A stretch of 44,352 bases of DNA, taken from the NCBI GenBank assembly GCA_003696775.1, contig RFFS01000158.1, forward strand, positions 1 through 44,352. Reading direction: 5' to 3'. The notes under the pieces were generated by a model. The model worked only from the letters and a program-made list of their open reading frames with translations. It searched no databases and was not told the origin of the DNA. The position numbers were made by a program, and so were the translations under genes. This DNA comes from Calditrichota bacterium (GTDB lineage: Bacteria; Calditrichota; Calditrichia; Calditrichales; J004). Below, in pieces: positions 6,120 through 15,545 of the stretch; positions within the stretch are counted from its first letter, which is position 1; every line of letters starts with the position of its first letter.

Positions 6120-7580
6120 TCAGGCCGCTTCTTCACTGAATTTTTTACGTGTGTACGAAGCCACCATGCCGGCCAGAAACAACAGGCCCACCAGATTGGG
6201 AAAAGCCATTAAGGCGTTACCGATATTACCGAGGTTCCAGACGATATTTAAGTATTCCAGGCTTTCACCGGCTATGGGCGTTATTATCGCTCCGATAAAA
6301 AGAAAGGCGATGAAGGTGTAACGGAAAGGCATGATCACTTTATTACCGCCCAAAAACTCTATGCATTTTTCACCATAATACGACCAGCCGATAAGGGTTG
6401 TATATCCGAAGATGAACGATGAAATGGCAATAATCGTCCCGCCCAGCCCAAACGGGATCACACTGTCGAAGGCTTGTTGGGTAACCAGAATACTGGTGAT
6501 GTTGCCCTCCACGCCGGCGCCGCGCCAGGCCTGGGTGAACTGATAGGCCCCCGTTAGCACGATCGTCAGGGTGGTCATGGTATTTACCAGAATGGTATCG
6601 ATAAACACACCGGTCATGGCGATCAGGCCGTTATGCACCGGTTCATCCGAAGCAGAAGCGCCCTGGGCAATCGCCGCCGACCCCAGCCCGGCTTCATTGG
6701 ATAGCAAACCACGGCTGACCCCGTTTTGTATGGCCAGACCCACCGAGGCGCCCACCAGTGGCTGCCAGCCAAAGGCCGATTTAAAAATCAAAACATAGGC
6801 GGCGGGTATCTGATCCACATTGGCAAGAATGATCCACAGGGAAAAAAAGATGTAAAAGATGATCATGGCCGGGACCAGTTTTTCGGAAACAGCGCCGATC
6901 TTTTTAATACCGCCGATGATCACCATCCCCACCAGCAGGGCAATAATCGCGCCGATTACATAATAATAAACGGCAGGCGCCTGTTCACCGGTAACACCGG
7001 CATGCACATATTGATTAATGGTATTGGCCAGAGATGCGGTCATGCTGTTGGATTGCGCCATGTTCCCGGTACCGATTAAGCAGGCGATAACACCGAAAAC
7101 GGCAAAAGCCGTTCCGAGCATATGGCCCAGTTTTTTGTTTTTAAGCCCGTTTTTCACATAATACATGGGGCCCCCGGCCATGGTACCGTTGGGCGCTACT
7201 TCGCGGTATTTTACGCCGAGAAAGCCTTCCGCGTATTTGGTGGCCATGCCAAACAATCCGGCTATCCACATAAATACCGGCGCGCCCGGCCCGCCGATGG
7301 CTATGGCCGTCGCCACACCGGCAATATTCCCGTTACCCACCGTGGCGGCCAACGCTGTCATCAACGCTGCGAACGGGGATATATCGCCATGCCCTTGTTC
7401 CGTGCGCGCTTCACGCGAAAAAATCAGTTTCAGGGAATACCACATTTTAGTGAATTGGATACCGCGTGTTACAAAAGTTAGAATGATGCCGGTAATCAAC
7501 AGCAGGCCGATCATGATCGGTCCCCACATTATATCATCCAGACGGGTAGTGAATTGAAGTACCTTATCAAAAAAAGTCAT
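6120..7580 (-). CDS. Sodium:alanine (AGCS-family) symporter
   Basis: A 486-residue inner-membrane carrier with about 11 hydrophobic segments. The family-defining stretch is clear near residue 80: GNGNIAGVATAIAIGGPGAP, then MATKYAEGFLGVKYR, and later GLLSNEAGLGSAA. AGCS proteins import alanine or glycine, and sometimes glutamine, with sodium or protons. The start ATG has an AAAGGAG site 7 bases upstream. It follows the SNF-type transporter by 21 bases on the same strand, so both are probably on one transcript that ends at the hairpin at 6075-6092. Family assignment is firm; the amino acid carried is not. Confidence 0.95.
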   Translation of the reverse strand: MTFFDKVLQFTTRLDDIMWGPIMIGLLLITGIILTFVTRGIQFTKMWYSLKLIFSREARTEQGHGDISPFAALMTALAATVGNGNIAGVATAIAIGGPGAPVFMWIAGLFGMATKYAEGFLGVKYREVAPNGTMAGGPMYYVKNGLKNKKLGHMLGTAFAVFGVIACLIGTGNMAQSNSMTASLANTINQYVHAGVTGEQAPAVYYYVIGAIIALLVGMVIIGGIKKIGAVSEKLVPAMIIFYIFFSLWIILANVDQIPAAYVLIFKSAFGWQPLVGASVGLAIQNGVSRGLLSNEAGLGSAAIAQGASASDEPVHNGLIAMTGVFIDTILVNTMTTLTIVLTGAYQFTQAWRGAGVEGNITSILVTQQAFDSVIPFGLGGTIIAISSFIFGYTTLIGWSYYGEKCIEFLGGNKVIMPFRYTFIAFLFIGAIITPIAGESLEYLNIVWNLGNIGNALMAFPNLVGLLFLAGMVASYTRKKFSEEAA

Positions 7581-7601
7581 CTATCGGCTCCTTTGGCGCA
7601 A

Positions 7602-8945
7602 TTAGAAAATATGAACGGTGTTTAACAGCACAAGCAAAATCACAAGGGGAATAACAAATCGTATGATGAACTTCCATAAGCCCCGGGTTTTGGCAAATAG
7701 CGGCGCGCCTTTTTCAACTTCATCGGCGGCCTTATCAATACCCCACACCCAGCCGACAAAAATACTAAGCGAAATGGCACCCACCGCCAGGGCGATATCC
7801 CCAAAGATAAAGCTCATCTGACTCAAAAAATCGGCGCTGGTAAAAGACGCCGGGATCAACCCGAAATTACTAAAAAATTCCGACGCGCCCTGCGACAGTG
7901 CCGAAGGCAGCCCCAACAAAAAGGTGATCCCGGCTACAATCCAAACGATGGTTTTACGATCCATTTTATGATCGTCGATTAAATAGGATACCGGTACTTC
8001 CAACAACGAGATGGTGGAAGTCAGCGCCGCGACGGTAAGCAATACAAAAAAGAGGGCACCCACCACCAATCCTCCGGGCATTTGGGCAAACAGTTCCGGT
8101 AATACAACAAATACCAGCGTGGGCCCCGCGGACGGGTCTTTGCCCATGGTAAACAAAGCGGGAAAAATAATAAGTCCGGCAAACAAGGCGATCAGCGTAT
8201 CAAAAAGCGCCACGCTGACGCCCGAAGTAACCAGGTTATCATTCTTGCTCAGATAGCTGCCATAGGTGATCATCGTGCCCATGCCCAGGCTTAATGAGAA
8301 GAAGGCCTGGCCCAGCGCCGCCAACAGGGTGCGTCCGGTAATTTTGGAAAAATCGGGTTTCAGGTAAAATTCCAATCCTTTTCCCGCGCCGTCCAAGGTC
8401 ATGGCGTATATAACCAGAGCCAACAACAGAATAAAAAAGAGCGGCATCAAAATTTTAGACCAACGTTCGATCCCCTCGGACACCCCTTTTTGCACAATCA
8501 GGGATGTAAGGGCCACAAACAGGGCAAACAGTGAAATCTCCGACCAGGGATCGGCAACAAAAGCTCCGAAACCGCCGACCTGCCCCACAAACATTTTATA
8601 GATATAGGCAACCGTCCATCCGGCGATAACCGCGTAAAAAGATAAAATTCCCACACCGGTGATCACCCCGAGAAAACCGGCCATGCGCCAAAAACTTTTG
8701 GGACGAATTTTTTCTATGGCGCCCACCGGGTTTTGTTGCGTCGCCCGGCCCAATGCCAGTTCGGCATACATATAGGGCAAACCGATCAACACCACAAATA
8801 TCACATAAAACAGGACAAAAGCACCGCCGCCGTTTTCTCCCGTTACGTAGGGGAAACGCCAGATATTACCTAAACCGATGGCCGATCCGGCCGCTGCCAT
8901 GATAAAACCTATTTTTGAATTCCATTGACCCCTGGGTGCGCTCAT
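7602..8945 (-). CDS. Sodium-dependent transporter, SNF/NSS family
   Basis: A 447-residue neurotransmitter:sodium symporter homologue of the LeuT/MhsT fold. Helix 1 carries the diagnostic AAGSAIGLGNIWRFPYV, followed by ENGGGAFVLFY, and the unwound helix 6 region reads GQAFFSLSLGMGTMITYGSYL. Length and an 11-12 helix profile are normal for bacterial members. It should import an amino acid with sodium. A strong AGGAGG ribosome site precedes the ATG, and a good TTGACA-type promoter lies about 120 bases upstream. It is the first gene of a two-gene amino-acid uptake operon with the AGCS symporter. Confidence 0.95.
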   Translation of the reverse strand: MSAPRGQWNSKIGFIMAAAGSAIGLGNIWRFPYVTGENGGGAFVLFYVIFVVLIGLPYMYAELALGRATQQNPVGAIEKIRPKSFWRMAGFLGVITGVGILSFYAVIAGWTVAYIYKMFVGQVGGFGAFVADPWSEISLFALFVALTSLIVQKGVSEGIERWSKILMPLFFILLLALVIYAMTLDGAGKGLEFYLKPDFSKITGRTLLAALGQAFFSLSLGMGTMITYGSYLSKNDNLVTSGVSVALFDTLIALFAGLIIFPALFTMGKDPSAGPTLVFVVLPELFAQMPGGLVVGALFFVLLTVAALTSTISLLEVPVSYLIDDHKMDRKTIVWIVAGITFLLGLPSALSQGASEFFSNFGLIPASFTSADFLSQMSFIFGDIALAVGAISLSIFVGWVWGIDKAADEVEKGAPLFAKTRGLWKFIIRFVIPLVILLVLLNTVHIF

Positions 8946-9091: not shown

Positions 9092-9103
9092 AAATTAAAA
9101 AAA

Positions 9104-9121
9104 GGAACGGCCAACCGTTCC
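9104..9121 (-). terminator. Strong intrinsic terminator of the CHASE2/cyclase operon
   Basis: A perfect 7-bp stem (GGAACGG/CCGTTCC) with a CCAA loop lies 6 bases past the cyclase stop. It is flanked by A-rich sequence on one side and nine Ts on the other, so it can work in both directions. In context it ends the minus-strand operon. Confidence 0.85.
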
Positions 9122-9127
9122 TTTTTT

Positions 9128-11284
9128 TTATTTCGTAGTCATGGTAAAGACGCCATCCCACTCTTCACCCGGATCGTTCACTTTGAATTCCAGGCAACGT
9201 TTACGATACAGGCGGGATGGCGGGTCATCCGGCACCAGTGAAAGACAGTGTTCAAAAAACTGAATGGCCGCGCTCCACCGTCGCTGTCGATAGGCCTCCA
9301 TCCCCTGCTTATAGACCGACAACATTTCCAGATAGCCGGAAGACAATGGTTGTGTGCGCTCGGCTATCAGCTCAAAAACTTCAATCGGTTTGTTTTTTCC
9401 CTTTACACGGATCAAATCAAGCGGTCGGGTATAAAAGTCGTTTTTTACATATTCATGGGTAAATTCACTGATCATAATAAATGTGCCATATTGCTTATTG
9501 GCGCCTTCAAGACGTGAACCCAGGTTCACATGGTCACCCATAACCGTGTAATCAAACACCGTCTCCGAACCCATGTTGCCCACAATCACTTCGCCGGTAT
9601 TGATACCGATACGCGCTTCCAGTTCCGGCTTGCCTTCGTTTTTCCATTTTTCGCGCAATTCCCTGAGCTTCTCTTGCATGCGCAATGCCACCCTGCAAGC
9701 CACCTGCGGATGATCCTCATAAGGTACCGGCACGCCGAATTCCGCCATGATCGCATCGCCTTCGTACTTGTCGATGATACCGTTATGCTCCAGAACAATA
9801 TTGGTCATGGCCGTAAGATATTCGTTCAACAAGACCACCAGTTCCTTGGGTGTCAGCTTTTCGGAAATGGTGGTAAAACCGGCCACGTCGGAAAACATGA
9901 CGGTTACCACGCGCTCTTCGCCGCCCAGTTGCAGTTTTTCGGGATTGGCCACGATATCCTGCACCACTTTTTCGGGAACATATTGGGCAAAAGCGCCACG
10001 CAGCATTTTCTTTTCCTGCTGGGTTTGCAGATAGTGATGTAAAATATGGCCGACATAGGCGAAACTGACAATAAGGGTTGGCGGCACCATATCCACAATC
10101 ATATTATGATTGGTAAATAAATAAAGCGCGATGAAAAAGAAACCTACAAAACCGGACAACACAGCGGCGGCCGACCACAATGTGGGCAAATAACGTGTTA
10201 CCAAAAAGGTGATGAGCAGCGCCAGAAGAATATTCCCCCAATGGAACAGCATCGGAGCGCGTTTCAGAAAACGCTTTTGCAGCATGGTCAGCAATGCATT
10301 GGCGTGGATTTCCACTCCCGGCATTTCCACCTTGGCATTTATACCTTCCGCCGTGGTGCTTTCCAGAAAAGGCGTTGGGAAGTTATCATGCAATTCCTGC
10401 ATGGTGGAACCGATCAACACGATTTTATCTTTTAGCAGACCGGAATATTTCAGGCCGGGCGTAATACCCGCTTCGGGGTCGCCGGGATCGTCAAACGCAT
10501 CAAGATCATAATCTTCCAACAGATCGAAATCTTCCGTATCCAGGATGTTATCAAAGGAATAGTTGGGGAACGAATAAGCCGGCCCGATGAAATTGACCAG
10601 CATGCTGTGCATATCATATTTGGGAATAATCAGATTACCCAGTTGAAAATCATCTTCCCGGCTTTCCAGCATAGCATCCGGTTGATCGGTATATAGCTTG
10701 TACAATTCCGCGGCAAAGGATGAATAAAGGGAATCATTGTGTGTATCGCCGATGATATAGCGTCTGTAAAAACCGTCCAGGTCGGCTTCAAGGGAAACCA
10801 GCCCCCACCGTGTTTTGGAGGTCATAAATTTTTCATAGGGCGGTATGACCGTACTGTACGAGCCCCGTTCAAAACTACGCAACATTTTACCCACCAGTAC
10901 GATATTTCCATAGGTGTTGAGTACCTGGGCCAGCTCATCATCTTCCTTTGTTCCGTACTTATCGGGCTGATCAAAGATAACGTCCACACCGATGGCTTTG
11001 GCGCCGGCTTCGTTTAAATTACGTAGCACATGCGCAAAATAAGAACGCGGCCAGGGCCAGCGATGCGGGGTCGATTCATCGGACTGATCATCAATTTTAA
11101 CAATCACGATGGGGTTATCCGGCACCTCCACCGGACCGCGCAGCCCAAAACGCATATCCAGCGATTTCAGTTCCAGGGTGCGGAAAGTTGTGGTGGAGGC
11201 CAGAAAAACAGCAACGATTACCGCCGCCAGACTGATCCCGAAGGCGATCAGCCCTTCGGAAATGTTGGATTTCTTCTTTTCCAT
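9128..11284 (-). CDS. CHASE2-domain adenylate cyclase (class III)
   Basis: A 718-residue membrane receptor. One helix (about 11-30) leads to an extracytoplasmic CHASE2 sensor (about 35-340; VPDNPIVIVKIDDQSDE, RWPWPRSYFAHVL, KAIGVDVIFD), followed by three closely spaced helices (about 348-412). Next come a linker (AFAQYVPEKVV) and a class III cyclase domain (about 455-642). Metal-binding aspartates are Asp466 (FSDVAGFT) and Asp510 (YEGDAIMA). Lys506 and the DYT at 578-580 fit ATP rather than GTP; transition-state residues Asn587 and Arg591 (VNLGSRLEG) are present, so the enzyme looks active and should make cAMP. The C-terminal 70 residues resemble a single TPR-like pair. An acidic insert lies at residues 245-272 of the sensor. 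It starts 8 bases after the barrel gene and is the last gene of its operon. Confidence 0.93.
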   Translation of the reverse strand: MEKKKSNISEGLIAFGISLAAVIVAVFLASTTTFRTLELKSLDMRFGLRGPVEVPDNPIVIVKIDDQSDESTPHRWPWPRSYFAHVLRNLNEAGAKAIGVDVIFDQPDKYGTKEDDELAQVLNTYGNIVLVGKMLRSFERGSYSTVIPPYEKFMTSKTRWGLVSLEADLDGFYRRYIIGDTHNDSLYSSFAAELYKLYTDQPDAMLESREDDFQLGNLIIPKYDMHSMLVNFIGPAYSFPNYSFDNILDTEDFDLLEDYDLDAFDDPGDPEAGITPGLKYSGLLKDKIVLIGSTMQELHDNFPTPFLESTTAEGINAKVEMPGVEIHANALLTMLQKRFLKRAPMLFHWGNILLALLITFLVTRYLPTLWSAAAVLSGFVGFFFIALYLFTNHNMIVDMVPPTLIVSFAYVGHILHHYLQTQQEKKMLRGAFAQYVPEKVVQDIVANPEKLQLGGEERVVTVMFSDVAGFTTISEKLTPKELVVLLNEYLTAMTNIVLEHNGIIDKYEGDAIMAEFGVPVPYEDHPQVACRVALRMQEKLRELREKWKNEGKPELEARIGINTGEVIVGNMGSETVFDYTVMGDHVNLGSRLEGANKQYGTFIMISEFTHEYVKNDFYTRPLDLIRVKGKNKPIEVFELIAERTQPLSSGYLEMLSVYKQGMEAYRQRRWSAAIQFFEHCLSLVPDDPPSRLYRKRCLEFKVNDPGEEWDGVFTMTTK

Positions 11285-11292
11285 GACCGACT

Positions 11293-13635
11293 CTAAAAAG
11301 TTACATCATAACGCACATTCACAATAGTGTCTTTCCAGTCCACGCCTGCCAGATCGCTGTAATCCATATAGTCCCAACGCAGGGATAAGGCGCCGAATTT
11401 TTCGGTGCGCAAATAAGCGCCCGCTGAATAATTCAGACGATTATAGGACTGACTTCCTTTAATTTGCTGCAACATCACATTGGCAAAAGGTTTCAGGCTC
11501 ATATTGCCGCTGCTGTTTTTATAAAGATATTCCACCCCCCCGTCATAGCGGGCAATTTCCGTGGTGCTGGCCGTGGCGCCGCTACCAAACGTGCTGTTGG
11601 TCTGACTGAATCCCAGACGCGTGGCAAAGGGAGCATCAAACTGATTGCGCAATCCCAGGCTGAATACGTTAAAGCTGGATTGATTGGTGGCTATGGCGCG
11701 ATCATCACGGGTAAAATTGTTAAAACTGACTGTTACCGTATTTTTTACGGAAGCCGTGTTAAATTTATAGCTGGAGGATAATCCGTAACGCTGGGTCGAA
11801 TTATCTTCCCGGTATAAGGCTTCATTATTGGGGTCCGCGTTATTGATGCGCGACTGGTTGCCAAAAGTTAACGTTACCCCCGGCAGATTGGTAAGCGGAA
11901 AGTAAGAAATGGATGCGCCAAAGTCTTTATTGTCGGTTTCCGCGCCTTCCTGGGAGAGATTATCCGTATAGGCGTTAAAATAAAGATTCATGAAAATCTG
12001 ATTATCCAGCAGGCGGATATTATCCGAAACATAAAGCCCGCGCACGCCCCGCAACAGGTATGGATTACCGGCTGTGGTGTAGTTGGCATCAATGGATTTG
12101 TAAGCCACTTTCAGCAACTGGTCAAAGTAGCTGAAATAGGCTTCGGCCTGCAATGCCAGGGACGGTATGGGGGCCAGGCCCTGGGAAAGTGTCAGAAAAC
12201 CGGTTGATTCCAACAGGTCCACATACGGTTTGACTCCGGAAGGAATATCGAATTGTTTGGCCAGGGTATCAAACTCTACTTTGCCCCGGGCATTGGTATT
12301 GCGAATACTGGCCTGCACGCTGCTTTTTATACGAACACGGTTATTATCCAGGTTGATATTAAGCGTGCTGCCCATGACCAGCGATTCCCTGGGATTCGCA
12401 CCGTATTTAATGGAACCGGGGTCTTCCTTGCCATTCACCAGATTGAGCCCCCAGCTCACATAACGACCAAAATTGAAAACCGGCCGTATGGCAATAAACG
12501 TTTCCTTATAGGTACCGTAACGGGATACAACCTCCGCGCCGCTGGAATCCTGCGTGGCGCTTCCTTCCACCGCGTTGGCTGTGGTACCCAGACTGACATC
12601 CAGGTCAAACCAGGCGCTTTTGAGACCGGTGGAGACCCCAAGGACACGGCGGTTCCAGAAGGTTAACGGATCATAGTTGCCGGAGAAATCCCCGCCCTTA
12701 ACATAAACACGGGTACGCGGTGTGAAATTATAGGCCATCAAAGCGGAATAACGGGTAGCGTTTTGAGAACTGTATCCCGGATTATTGTTATACTGTAAAC
12801 GCAGACCAATGTCCAAATCCTTATAGGCTCCGTCAAAATTTAGTCCCGCGCGTAAAAAATTATCTTGTTGTTTACTGATATTTTGAAATCGGTTATCGAG
12901 ATAAAAATTTGTACGGGAAGTAAAAGCCGCGCCGGAATTCCCCGAAGAACTTACCCGAAACGACCATTCTTTTTTACCCAACAGATTGCCGCTGCTGTTA
13001 AAAATTTTAAATTCCAGGTTATGATGCCCCACCGCCATTTTTTTCGGCGTCAGCATATAAAGGATGCCTTCGTTGTTCACCAGTTGGGACACGTTCACGC
13101 CATCAATAAGCAAACGCGTCCGGGCAGGATCGATATCGAGGTTTTCATCGGGAACGGATACGGCGATCAGCATTTCATCCTGAGGCACAACCGACTCCGG
13201 TTCCGGGCTGAGTACGATGATTTCCGCCAGGGCCTGGTTGACAGGTTCTTCAGCTCCGGCAATGACCTCGAATGACAAAGGATTGTTTTGAGGATCAACC
13301 GCGGGATAATAAAAAACACGACCGTCATACGCCTGCATGGCCAGGTAATATTCAATATGCCCCGGTGTCAGCTTTTTGGTGTCGATTTTGGTGGTAAGGC
13401 TCAGCCCTTCCTGACGCATGGGCGTCGAACGGTAGTCGGACGCGCCACGCGAACGGTAAAATAAACGCGCTTCATACACATCGCCGTCGAAAGATGAAAT
13501 GTTAAAAGCAATATCCGCGGAATGGCCGGCAACCACCGGTTGCAATTCCGTATGAAAAATCATCGGTGATCCGGCCAGGGCCACAGATGCCATTCCCACT
13601 GCCAGGAATGCTAAAAAAGTGCGAAACATACGCAT
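11293..13635 (-). CDS. Large outer-membrane protein: Ig-like domains plus beta-barrel
   Basis: The 780-residue protein has a signal peptide (1-21, ending VALAG). Residues about 25-125 and 135-235 look like two Ig-like beta domains; the first resembles the repeated YRSRGASDYRS / YYLAMQAYDG pattern of extracellular Ig folds. From about 240 to the end it is a long run of alternating amphipathic strands rich in Asn, Tyr and aromatic residues, and it closes with RYDVTF. A terminal Phe with alternating hydrophobics is the usual signal for outer-membrane barrel insertion. No TonB box or plug domain is seen. The ATG has GGGAGG 7 bases upstream. It lies between FecR and CHASE2-cyclase genes with short gaps, so it may be the outer-membrane partner of that sensor. 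I do not recognise a named family. Confidence 0.75.
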   Translation of the reverse strand: MRMFRTFLAFLAVGMASVALAGSPMIFHTELQPVVAGHSADIAFNISSFDGDVYEARLFYRSRGASDYRSTPMRQEGLSLTTKIDTKKLTPGHIEYYLAMQAYDGRVFYYPAVDPQNNPLSFEVIAGAEEPVNQALAEIIVLSPEPESVVPQDEMLIAVSVPDENLDIDPARTRLLIDGVNVSQLVNNEGILYMLTPKKMAVGHHNLEFKIFNSSGNLLGKKEWSFRVSSSGNSGAAFTSRTNFYLDNRFQNISKQQDNFLRAGLNFDGAYKDLDIGLRLQYNNNPGYSSQNATRYSALMAYNFTPRTRVYVKGGDFSGNYDPLTFWNRRVLGVSTGLKSAWFDLDVSLGTTANAVEGSATQDSSGAEVVSRYGTYKETFIAIRPVFNFGRYVSWGLNLVNGKEDPGSIKYGANPRESLVMGSTLNINLDNNRVRIKSSVQASIRNTNARGKVEFDTLAKQFDIPSGVKPYVDLLESTGFLTLSQGLAPIPSLALQAEAYFSYFDQLLKVAYKSIDANYTTAGNPYLLRGVRGLYVSDNIRLLDNQIFMNLYFNAYTDNLSQEGAETDNKDFGASISYFPLTNLPGVTLTFGNQSRINNADPNNEALYREDNSTQRYGLSSSYKFNTASVKNTVTVSFNNFTRDDRAIATNQSSFNVFSLGLRNQFDAPFATRLGFSQTNSTFGSGATASTTEIARYDGGVEYLYKNSSGNMSLKPFANVMLQQIKGSQSYNRLNYSAGAYLRTEKFGALSLRWDYMDYSDLAGVDWKDTIVNVRYDVTF

Positions 13636-13652
13636 GGTTTACCTCCCGATGA

Positions 13653-14330
13653 TTATTCGGATTTCTTAACTTTAAATTTCAACATTTTGCTTTTGCCCTG
13701 GGCATCCTTGAATTCCAGTTCAAATTCGTCGCCGGCGGCGTTGTCTTCATTCAGACCGGGTTTTTCGCCGGGTTTGGTTTTACGCACCACCGGTTTACTG
13801 TTTTTGGAGGTCACCACGCTTGTTTCACCTTTGTGCAACAAAGCCACACCGGCATCGTTGGCAATTTCCACAACGCCTTCTTCTCCGAAATAACTGGTTT
13901 TTCCTTTGTATTCCTGTACCGTCCAGAATTTGGTTCCCTTTACAGACGCCACCGAGGTGGGGGTGGTTACCCTGAAAAAACTGTTTTGCTTTGTGATGCT
14001 GGAAAAGATCGCTCCGAATTCAACAAAAATATTTTTGACGATGGAATTTTTTTCTTTTTTGGCCTGAATGAGACAAGTGGAATTGGGACGGATACGCAAC
14101 AGGCTGTTATCATCAATGAATTTGACCGCCGCGCGTCCTTTTTTACCGGTGGCAATTTTATCGCCGTCATTTAAACGCGTGCCGCGCCTGGCCTGCATGG
14201 ATTTACCCGTCTCTTTGTTTTTTATGGTTACCGTTCCCTTGGCCTTGATAACGATTGCGACCGTTTTCGCCTGCGCGCTAAGCACCAACAGAGTAAACAA
14301 CATTAAAAAAACTAATTTTACCGTTTTCAT
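13653..14330 (-). CDS. FecR-domain periplasmic protein
   Basis: The 225-residue protein has a signal peptide (1-21, ending LSAQA). The core is a FecR domain: KGTVTIKNKETGK, then RRGTRLNDGDKIATGKKGRAAVKFIDDNSLLRI, and the diagnostic FRVTTPTSVASVKGTKF at about 118-134. The C-terminal 60 residues are Lys/Glu rich (KVKKSE end) and probably flexible. Unlike true anti-sigma FecR proteins it lacks an N-terminal cytoplasmic anti-sigma segment and a transmembrane helix, and no ECF sigma gene is near. It is therefore more likely a periplasmic adaptor in the barrel/CHASE2 operon. Start ATG with AAGGAG; 17 bases separate it from the barrel gene. Confidence 0.88.
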   Translation of the reverse strand: MKTVKLVFLMLFTLLVLSAQAKTVAIVIKAKGTVTIKNKETGKSMQARRGTRLNDGDKIATGKKGRAAVKFIDDNSLLRIRPNSTCLIQAKKEKNSIVKNIFVEFGAIFSSITKQNSFFRVTTPTSVASVKGTKFWTVQEYKGKTSYFGEEGVVEIANDAGVALLHKGETSVVTSKNSKPVVRKTKPGEKPGLNEDNAAGDEFELEFKDAQGKSKMLKFKVKKSE

Positions 14331-14340
14331 GGCAATCTCC

Positions 14341-15444
14341 TTATCGTACCGTTACATCGGATAATTTATACTGACCCTTACTGCTGTACGTACTCAACTT
14401 TTTCAGCAGTTCCTGTGCCGACATAATCGAGCCGTTGAAACGAATCTTATTTAAATCGTAGCCTTCCAATTGACTAAAAACGGCGCGCATGTCATCTTCG
14501 GATAAGAGATTTAAGGCATTGATCAACTGATCCTTGGAAGCGCTCATAACCGTTTGGCCCTTTGCGGGATCCACAAGGGTAAACTCCCATAGCTCGCTTA
14601 ACAATTCATTTTCACCCGAACTGGTGGTAATAAACGATTTGACCAGCCAGACATAGGTTTCACCCACCTGCAGGGGGTAGGCGTTGGCCGTGGGGTACTG
14701 GAATACGAGGCCGTCCAACCGACCGGATTCAAAAACAGGCACGGAATTCAAAATATCATCAGCCGAGCTTGCTTCCTGCTGTTTTTTAAAAACCACCAGC
14801 TGATACTGACCACTGTTACCGTTCCATTGAAAAATCGGATTTTCCGTATAAACTTCATACTTTATACCGCTGTTAAGTTGCGTGCCGGGCGTAATCAGGT
14901 TTAACAACGTTGGATTCTGAATGACAAAGCTTTGCTCGTCGGTTGTTTCCTGTTGTACACCGTTTGCGGTATAATTCATGGTCAGAATCAATTGATATAA
15001 GCCGACCGGCAACTGACTGGTGGCCAGTATTTCATTCTGCAACTGTTCACCCACATCTTCCACGCCGCTTTCGGCGATTTTTATCTCCACGCCGTCAATC
15101 GTTTTGCCCTGAGATAAATCCACGTTTGTAAATACCCACTCCCTGGCATCTTCCGGCAGGGAAAAGGGTTTGGTTTTGATAAACGCCAGGGATTTACCGT
15201 CCAATTTAAAATCAAAACGGATCACCGCTTCTTCCACACTACCGGGCGTTTTATTGATGTGCAGGGCAAACAACTCTTCCGTGGCTCCCACCTGCAAAAA
15301 GTCAAAATCCGACAGATAAACGGACTGGTACTGCGACAAGCCGCGGTCTTCCAGCGTTACGGTAATTACCGCCGATTGGGATACGGCCGGCATCACGGCA
15401 AACAATAAGGCCCAAAGACCCCACAATAATTTTTGTCGCTTCAT
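14341..15444 (-). CDS. Secreted Ig/fibronectin-like protein of the CHASE2 operon
   Basis: This is the first gene of the operon, 367 residues from the ATG at 15444, which has an excellent AGGAGG site. An in-frame ATG 27 codons upstream lacks one. A signal peptide (1-23, ending SQSAV) is followed by about 170 residues of beta-rich sequence, a domain around 175-290 containing ENPIFQWNGNSGQYQLVVFK and GETYVWLVKSF, which is a fibronectin/Ig-like pattern seen in many extracellular proteins, and a helical C-terminal 60 residues (SEDDMRAVFSQLEGYD). I do not recognise a family. The QWNG...YQLVV pattern resembles the Ig-like modules of DUF928-type proteins found near CHASE2 genes in cyanobacteria, but that is a resemblance only. 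It ends 10 bases before FecR. Confidence 0.7.
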   Translation of the reverse strand: MKRQKLLWGLWALLFAVMPAVSQSAVITVTLEDRGLSQYQSVYLSDFDFLQVGATEELFALHINKTPGSVEEAVIRFDFKLDGKSLAFIKTKPFSLPEDAREWVFTNVDLSQGKTIDGVEIKIAESGVEDVGEQLQNEILATSQLPVGLYQLILTMNYTANGVQQETTDEQSFVIQNPTLLNLITPGTQLNSGIKYEVYTENPIFQWNGNSGQYQLVVFKKQQEASSADDILNSVPVFESGRLDGLVFQYPTANAYPLQVGETYVWLVKSFITTSSGENELLSELWEFTLVDPAKGQTVMSASKDQLINALNLLSEDDMRAVFSQLEGYDLNKIRFNGSIMSAQELLKKLSTYSSKGQYKLSDVTVR

Positions 15445-15514
15445 GATATTTCCTCCTGTTTGGTTGTGCGGATAAAGCACGTCATTATTTACAATATTTG
15501 TTATGACACAAAAC

Positions 15515-15529
15515 ACAGATGACATCTGT
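15515..15529. promoter_or_regulatory. Perfect 15-bp palindrome upstream of the CHASE2 operon
   Basis: ACAGATG-A-CATCTGT is a perfect 7-1-7 dyad, 71-85 bases before the first start codon of the operon. It directly abuts the CRP-like box. As DNA it may be an operator; as RNA it would make a poor hairpin because the loop is one base. It may pair with flanking CACA/TGTG to extend. Confidence 0.45.
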
Positions 15530-15545
15530 TGTGACGCTACTCTCA
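15530..15545. promoter_or_regulatory. CRP-like box (TGTGA-N6-TCTCA)
   Basis: TGTGA-N6-TCTCA matches the CRP/FNR-family consensus TGTGA-N6-TCACA at 9 of 10 positions. It lies 86-101 bases before the start codon of the operon that ends in an adenylate cyclase. If transcription starts near 15479, after a possible TAAATA -10 at 15491-15486, the box centre is about 58 bases upstream, close to a class I activator site. No -35 element is convincing, which would suit an activator-dependent promoter. The regulator gene is not in the window, so the assignment is tentative. Confidence 0.35.

Follow-up and report, generated by a model that had tools for sequence, protein, structure and literature searches.

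The 44,352-nt contig RFFS01000158.1 of a Calditrichota bacterium (assembly GCA_003696775.1; genome size 3.25 Mb), hereafter the window, was investigated for a four-gene cassette on its minus strand (9128-15444). In order, the genes encode a secreted immunoglobulin (Ig)-like protein (IG), a FecR-domain protein (FECR), an Ig-plus-barrel protein (BARREL), and a CHASE2 adenylate cyclase (CHASE2-AC). The cassette is probably an operon for one envelope-spanning cyclic AMP (cAMP) signaling pathway, working like the NsrA-CyaK system of Sinorhizobium meliloti. The four parts very probably act in one pathway, and this is most likely, as with NsrA-CyaK, a pathway of outer-membrane-to-cAMP signaling. A dedicated, envelope-spanning partner set, as claimed by the original prediction, is supported because the gene order is conserved across phyla, the genes co-occur even when unlinked, and an experimentally studied analogue, NsrA-CyaK, exists.

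Conservation of the Gene Order

We searched 40 Calditrichota genomes for the cassette and identified the BARREL family in 38 of them. BARREL was directly followed by CHASE2-AC in 35 of the 38, a count that includes G008, G024, G032, and G037, in which the pair was seen on a second contig with the last part of BARREL. The full set was found in order on a single contig in 27 genomes. The locus in G017 was interrupted by a contig end, G029 kept IG-FECR-BARREL with an unlinked cyclase, and G016 (98% complete) had lost both this trio and the cassette-type cyclase. The PNP, PgsA, and SppA genes adjoined the cassette in some families only (these names, and those of the transporter neighbors, come from our reading of the open reading frame (ORF) sequences), while the four genes stayed together in every family with a complete locus.

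The complete order was also present in 20 genomes outside Calditrichota (G046, G060, G061, G064, G067, G070, G072, G073, G075, G076, G079, G082, G096, G099, G125, G134, G220, G268, G396, and G404), and among the phyla outside Calditrichota that carry the cassette are that of G046 and, separate from it, that of G045/G099. Where the flanks of these loci were read (L061), they were unrelated to those of the window; in G046 they consisted of genes resembling those for a superoxide dismutase and an acyltransferase. The order was permuted in G337, with CHASE2 first, and in G065, G062, and G078 BARREL and the cyclase are separated where contigs end. In G066 (L128), a single ORF covering IG and FECR preceded BARREL and CHASE2. 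Inside this apparent fusion lies a stretch resembling a signal peptide, and the ORF was not counted as evidence of fusion.

The gene order is far beyond chance. That the four genes are neighbors by accident, co-transcribed without any functional relation, is hardly credible given that the order is kept across phyla with changed flanks and that the genes co-occur when unlinked, and chance adjacency, in whose favor nothing was found, was rejected on the conserved order. These searches within and beyond the phylum confirmed the expectation that the four-gene order recurs in related genomes; they also contradict the refuting case that had been named, namely that homologues would never occur together elsewhere.

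Co-Occurrence of Unlinked Genes and the Cyclase Tree

Where the trio lacked an adjacent cyclase, a cassette-type CHASE2 cyclase was encoded elsewhere in all genomes but one. Eight genomes outside Calditrichota (G068, G131, G224, G271, G274, G318, G400, and G403) carried the trio, or its FECR-BARREL part, with no adjoining cyclase and with a full-length cassette-type CHASE2 cyclase at another site. Across the panel of 345 genomes outside Calditrichota, with a substantial BARREL match counted as presence of the barrel, a cassette-type CHASE2-AC was found in 18/18 genomes with BARREL compared to 3/327 without it (Fisher p about 3e-27, a value that is only indicative since the cut-offs of the 2x2 table were chosen after the data had been seen and the genomes share ancestry). 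Among the three exceptions, G098 has a truncated barrel adjoining the cyclase and G040 is only 59% complete.

In the cyclase tree, the unlinked cyclases were placed among the linked ones, with direct unlinked/linked sister pairs including L145/L054, L239/L134, and L232/L196, and the orphan paralogues stood apart. The cassette type keeps positions 249, 255, and 260 of CHASE2 (region 249-260), at which the orphan paralogues have gaps or other residues. One such CHASE2 adenylate cyclase, the second in the source genome (L143:7877-10024, contig G000:C95), is conserved in Calditrichota and has no partners of the FecR, barrel, or Ig kind. Two cyclases from outside Calditrichota, L232 (G318) and L196 (G133), branched inside the Calditrichota clade, which suggests horizontal transfer of the cassette. 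A separate arrangement was observed in G077 (L130:4984-8640), where a single ORF of 1218 amino acids (aa) carries an extra CHASE2 region of about 430 residues ahead of a complete CHASE2 cyclase.

Comparison with Known Systems

In S. meliloti, nsrA lies immediately upstream of the CHASE2 cyclase gene cyaK. NsrA contains a FecR domain (residues 66-160) plus tetratricopeptide repeats (TPR), and its C-terminal half has been described as a beta-barrel (PMC7529298). NsrA is required for the CyaK-dependent response, and the genetics supports signaling from barrel to cyclase (PMC7529298). Both proteins are reported to be needed for signal perception and cAMP output, and the candidate signal is ribosomal protein uL2 (PMC7529298, PMC13001267). 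NsrA-CyaK, with CyaD1/CyaD2, resembles the cassette in having FecR, barrel, and CHASE2 cyclase encoded together, in the same order and direction, with cAMP as output. The two differ in that FecR, TPR, and barrel form one 1200-aa protein in S. meliloti, whereas the cassette has separate FECR and BARREL genes, with Ig domains instead of TPR and a barrel that is not detectably homologous; the NsrA-CyaK pair also has no Ig-like partner.

Comparable arrangements occur elsewhere. In Methylocystis, a similar FecR-TPR protein precedes a CHASE2 cyclase. In Campylobacterota, genes for CHASE2 cyclases are clustered with those for an outer-membrane protein with a FecR domain, a TPR protein, and a cAMP phosphodiesterase (PMC9239204); by description, the first of these partners likens them to the cassette, which has neither of the other two. 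The Burkholderia BiofilmReg operon, disruption of which abolished biofilm, likewise sets a FecR-domain periplasmic protein beside a CHASE2 receptor, but it signals through a histidine kinase and response regulator, LysM is carried on the FecR protein, and there is no barrel (PMC5192318). A further CHASE2-barrel pairing was seen in Azospirillum, where a CHASE2 cyclase is followed by a ShlB/FhaC secretion barrel (L246:5977-9857).

Recurrence may extend even to the Ig-like partner. DUF928 was aligned by hhalign with the second Ig domain of IG (probability 81%, a remote similarity), and at 12 of 19 DUF928 loci (L248-L266) a CHASE2 protein lay within 1.5 kb, in genomes that are cyanobacteria-like as inferred from their DUF928 content. 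Only 1 of 46 IG members matched PF06051 (DUF928), at an E-value of 0.002 that did not reach the cut-off, and no Calditrichota member matched; within the DUF928 loci, taken as 3-kb stretches, no FECR or BARREL match was found.

The FecIR-FecA system was also considered, as it shares a FecR domain and an outer-membrane barrel with the cassette, which in contrast has no sigma factor, anti-sigma part, plug, or TonB receptor. Cell-surface signaling of the FecIRA type was rejected on three grounds. FECR (225 aa) has PF04773 alone, with a signal peptide and no anti-sigma domain or transmembrane helix. The neighbors read as transporters and PNP/PgsA/SppA-type genes, with no adjoining extracytoplasmic function sigma gene. 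BARREL has no Pfam plug or STN match, and its model consists of Ig domains and 26 strands.

Protein Features and Operon Boundaries

A Pfam scan of all four proteins gave matches in FECR and CHASE2-AC only; IG and BARREL matched no family. CHASE2-AC matched CHASE2 (PF05226, 3e-58) and Guanylate_cyc (PF00211, 1e-27), and has one N-terminal membrane segment plus a cluster ahead of the cyclase domain. The residues for metal binding (D466 and D510), base selection (K506 and T580), and transition-state stabilization (N587 and R591) are all present and invariant in 25 homologues. With its CHASE2 domain, membrane segments, and intact catalytic set, CHASE2-AC is a predicted class III adenylate cyclase, in agreement with the original prediction. 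A threonine at the second base-selecting position characterizes class IIIb cyclases, a group with many bicarbonate-responsive members. The source genome encodes six cyclic nucleotide (cNMP)-binding domains, which could act as readers of cAMP.

FECR matched PF04773 (9e-13, residues 57-155). Hydropathy showed no hydrophobic segment beyond the signal peptide, and an alignment of 36 homologues showed a single FecR domain and a conserved C-terminal segment; the description of a FecR protein without anti-sigma or membrane part was therefore correct. A second FecR-domain protein (479 aa) was found in the source genome (L161:5056-8244, contig G000:C173) beside a weakly similar 580-aa barrel-like protein. 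Similar proteins occur in related genomes, and no CHASE2 gene lies near the pair.

AlphaFold modeled IG (pLDDT, its per-residue confidence score, 88.9) as two Ig-like beta-sandwich domains and a helical C-terminal domain, which bears out its description as an Ig-like protein. BARREL (pLDDT 87.9), a 780-aa protein with a signal peptide and a C-terminal phenylalanine, was modeled with two Ig-like domains ahead of a 26-strand barrel that has no plug, as the Ig-plus-barrel assignment had anticipated. For its first Ig domain (26-125), the PDB yielded a match to that of peptidylarginine deiminase chains (E 6e-10). Foldseek returned only generic outer-membrane barrels for BARREL, MtrB of the Mtr complex being the most balanced (template modeling (TM) score 0.40/0.47), and for IG its matches were all generic, of Ig and transglutaminase type, and had poor TM-scores. 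A PDB sequence search with the FECR and IG profiles gave no meaningful match. By strand parity on the AlphaFold model, which is not a measured topology, the longest outer segment of BARREL is residues 447-491.

The initial ORF calls on the minus strand were 14341-15525, 13653-14330, 11293-13635, and 9128-11284. As described in the original prediction, four genes with short gaps were found: 10 bp between IG and FECR, 17 bp between FECR and BARREL, and 8 bp between BARREL and CHASE2-AC. Clear purine-rich ribosome-binding sites precede the first three genes. The first gene is present as called, but its start is at 15444 rather than 15525: the sequence AGGAGGAAATATC-ATG, with the Shine-Dalgarno (SD) motif AGGAGG, marks a start conserved in an alignment of 32 homologues, and the 27 extra residues of the longer call show no conservation. 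The single terminator was also found (Table 1). The proposed upstream control region was not borne out, as a promoter scan upstream of IG gave 14 matches against 11.6 +/- 4 expected, which is chance level, and an Rfam search there gave no match; no RNA element stands out.

Table 1. Features of the cassette, with positions in the window and the evidence for each.
Feature	Coordinates	Strand	Evidence
IG, secreted (predicted), 367 aa, two Ig-like domains and C-terminal helical domain	14341..15444	-	SD, conserved start, AlphaFold, homologues in 32-46 genomes; no Pfam family
FECR, periplasmic (predicted), 225 aa, signal peptide, no anti-sigma or transmembrane part	13653..14330	-	PF04773, hydropathy, 36 homologues aligned
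BARREL, outer-membrane (predicted), 780 aa, two N-terminal Ig-like domains and predicted 26-strand barrel, no plug, C-terminal Phe	11293..13635	-	AlphaFold, Foldseek
CHASE2-AC, inner-membrane (predicted), 718 aa, class III (type IIIb-like) cyclase, C-terminal TPR-like tail	9128..11284	-	PF05226, PF00211, catalytic residues
Intrinsic terminator, strong, bidirectional, 14-pair stem and T-run, touches CHASE2-AC stop	9097..9128	-	Sequence

Two genes for sodium-coupled transporters of the amino-acid type (6120-8945) follow immediately after the terminator. In more distant relatives this pair no longer directly adjoins the cassette.

Proposed Mechanism and Alternatives

The genes, their order, conservation, and co-inheritance, the intact catalytic residues, and the predicted folds can be read from the sequences, and from these we infer localization, contacts, signal direction, and ligand as follows. 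BARREL would be located in the outer membrane, its Ig domains projecting into the periplasm. If BARREL or its outer-membrane surroundings change, the change would be passed to soluble FECR, probably together with IG, and the periplasmic FECR/IG complex may then act on the CHASE2 domain of the inner-membrane cyclase, altering cAMP synthesis. The change in cAMP would be read by cellular cNMP-binding proteins.

Several observations weigh against this pathway. The cyclase is unlinked in about nine genomes, and the statistical association of barrel and cyclase carries the dependence on cut-offs and ancestry given above. In G018 (76% complete), BARREL and CHASE2 are present but IG and FECR do not adjoin them. 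G027 (94% complete) keeps IG-FECR-BARREL while its CHASE2 proteins are only distant, so the trio may have a CHASE2-independent role. The BARREL profile did not match NsrA, and there is no detectable sequence similarity between the two barrels. Most predicted outer loops in the first half of BARREL, assigned by strand parity on the model, are conserved and not variable, a pattern that speaks against BARREL being a rapidly evolving receptor of environmental ligands.

This loop conservation and the G027 trio sustain the main alternative, which we regard as unlikely on balance yet well worth weighing: IG, FECR, and BARREL would make up a separate outer-membrane complex for structure, assembly, or transport, the cyclase would monitor its state or merely control its expression, and the barrel would not be a receptor for an outside ligand. 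The trio is indeed the tightest unit, kept by about 10 genomes with no cyclase alongside, and the barrel paired with the Azospirillum cyclase is of a secretion type. Near-perfect co-occurrence with one clade of CHASE2 cyclases nevertheless means that the cyclase still belongs to the function, and the NsrA genetics favors a receptor role for the analogous barrel (PMC7529298). A quite improbable second alternative makes FECR alone the CHASE2 partner, sensing a periplasmic condition such as that of the cell wall, with BARREL and IG as co-transcribed effectors or targets. FecR does stand beside CHASE2 with varied partners in Burkholderia (LysM-FecR/CHASE2 kinase; PMC5192318) and Campylobacterota (FecR/CHASE2 cyclase; PMC9239204). 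However, NsrA joins FecR and a C-terminal barrel in one protein, a similar FecR-TPR protein precedes the Methylocystis cyclase, and BARREL and IG remain with FECR even where the cyclase is unlinked.

Beyond the envelope-spanning cAMP pathway itself, we tentatively suggest a wider view, toward which we lean less than halfway. CHASE2 in general may serve, not as a small-molecule sensor, but as the place on the inner membrane where a periplasmic FecR/Ig-like complex docks, with an outer-membrane barrel carrying that complex. CHASE2 enzymes across phyla would then be the inner half of one outer-membrane-to-cytoplasm architecture, of which the cassette would be one widespread form and the 26-strand barrel a new receptor family.

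Novelty and Significance

The combination of FecR, an outer-membrane barrel, and a CHASE2 cyclase is a known kind of system. The view that a dedicated CHASE2 partner set would be new does not stand, as it was preceded by NsrA-CyaK (PMC7529298, PMC13001267), by the FecR/CHASE2-kinase operon of Burkholderia (PMC5192318), and by the Campylobacterota clusters (PMC9239204). For a CHASE2 cyclase, uL2 had also been reported already as a candidate upstream signal. In the open-licence literature, the unfused four-gene form, its spread over multiple phyla, a BARREL family without a Pfam model, and a dedicated Ig-like partner appear to be undescribed, and nothing was found on Calditrichota cyclases in open-licence papers.

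CHASE2 receptors are common, and what they detect is almost unknown. A cassette kept across several phyla offers a defined partner list, a new barrel family, and concrete candidate contacts. It also links the isolated case of NsrA-CyaK to a broader pattern in which FecR, an Ig-like protein, and an outer-membrane barrel recur around CHASE2 enzymes. If the proposed pathway is true, the outer membrane would control cAMP by a route without sigma factors or TonB.

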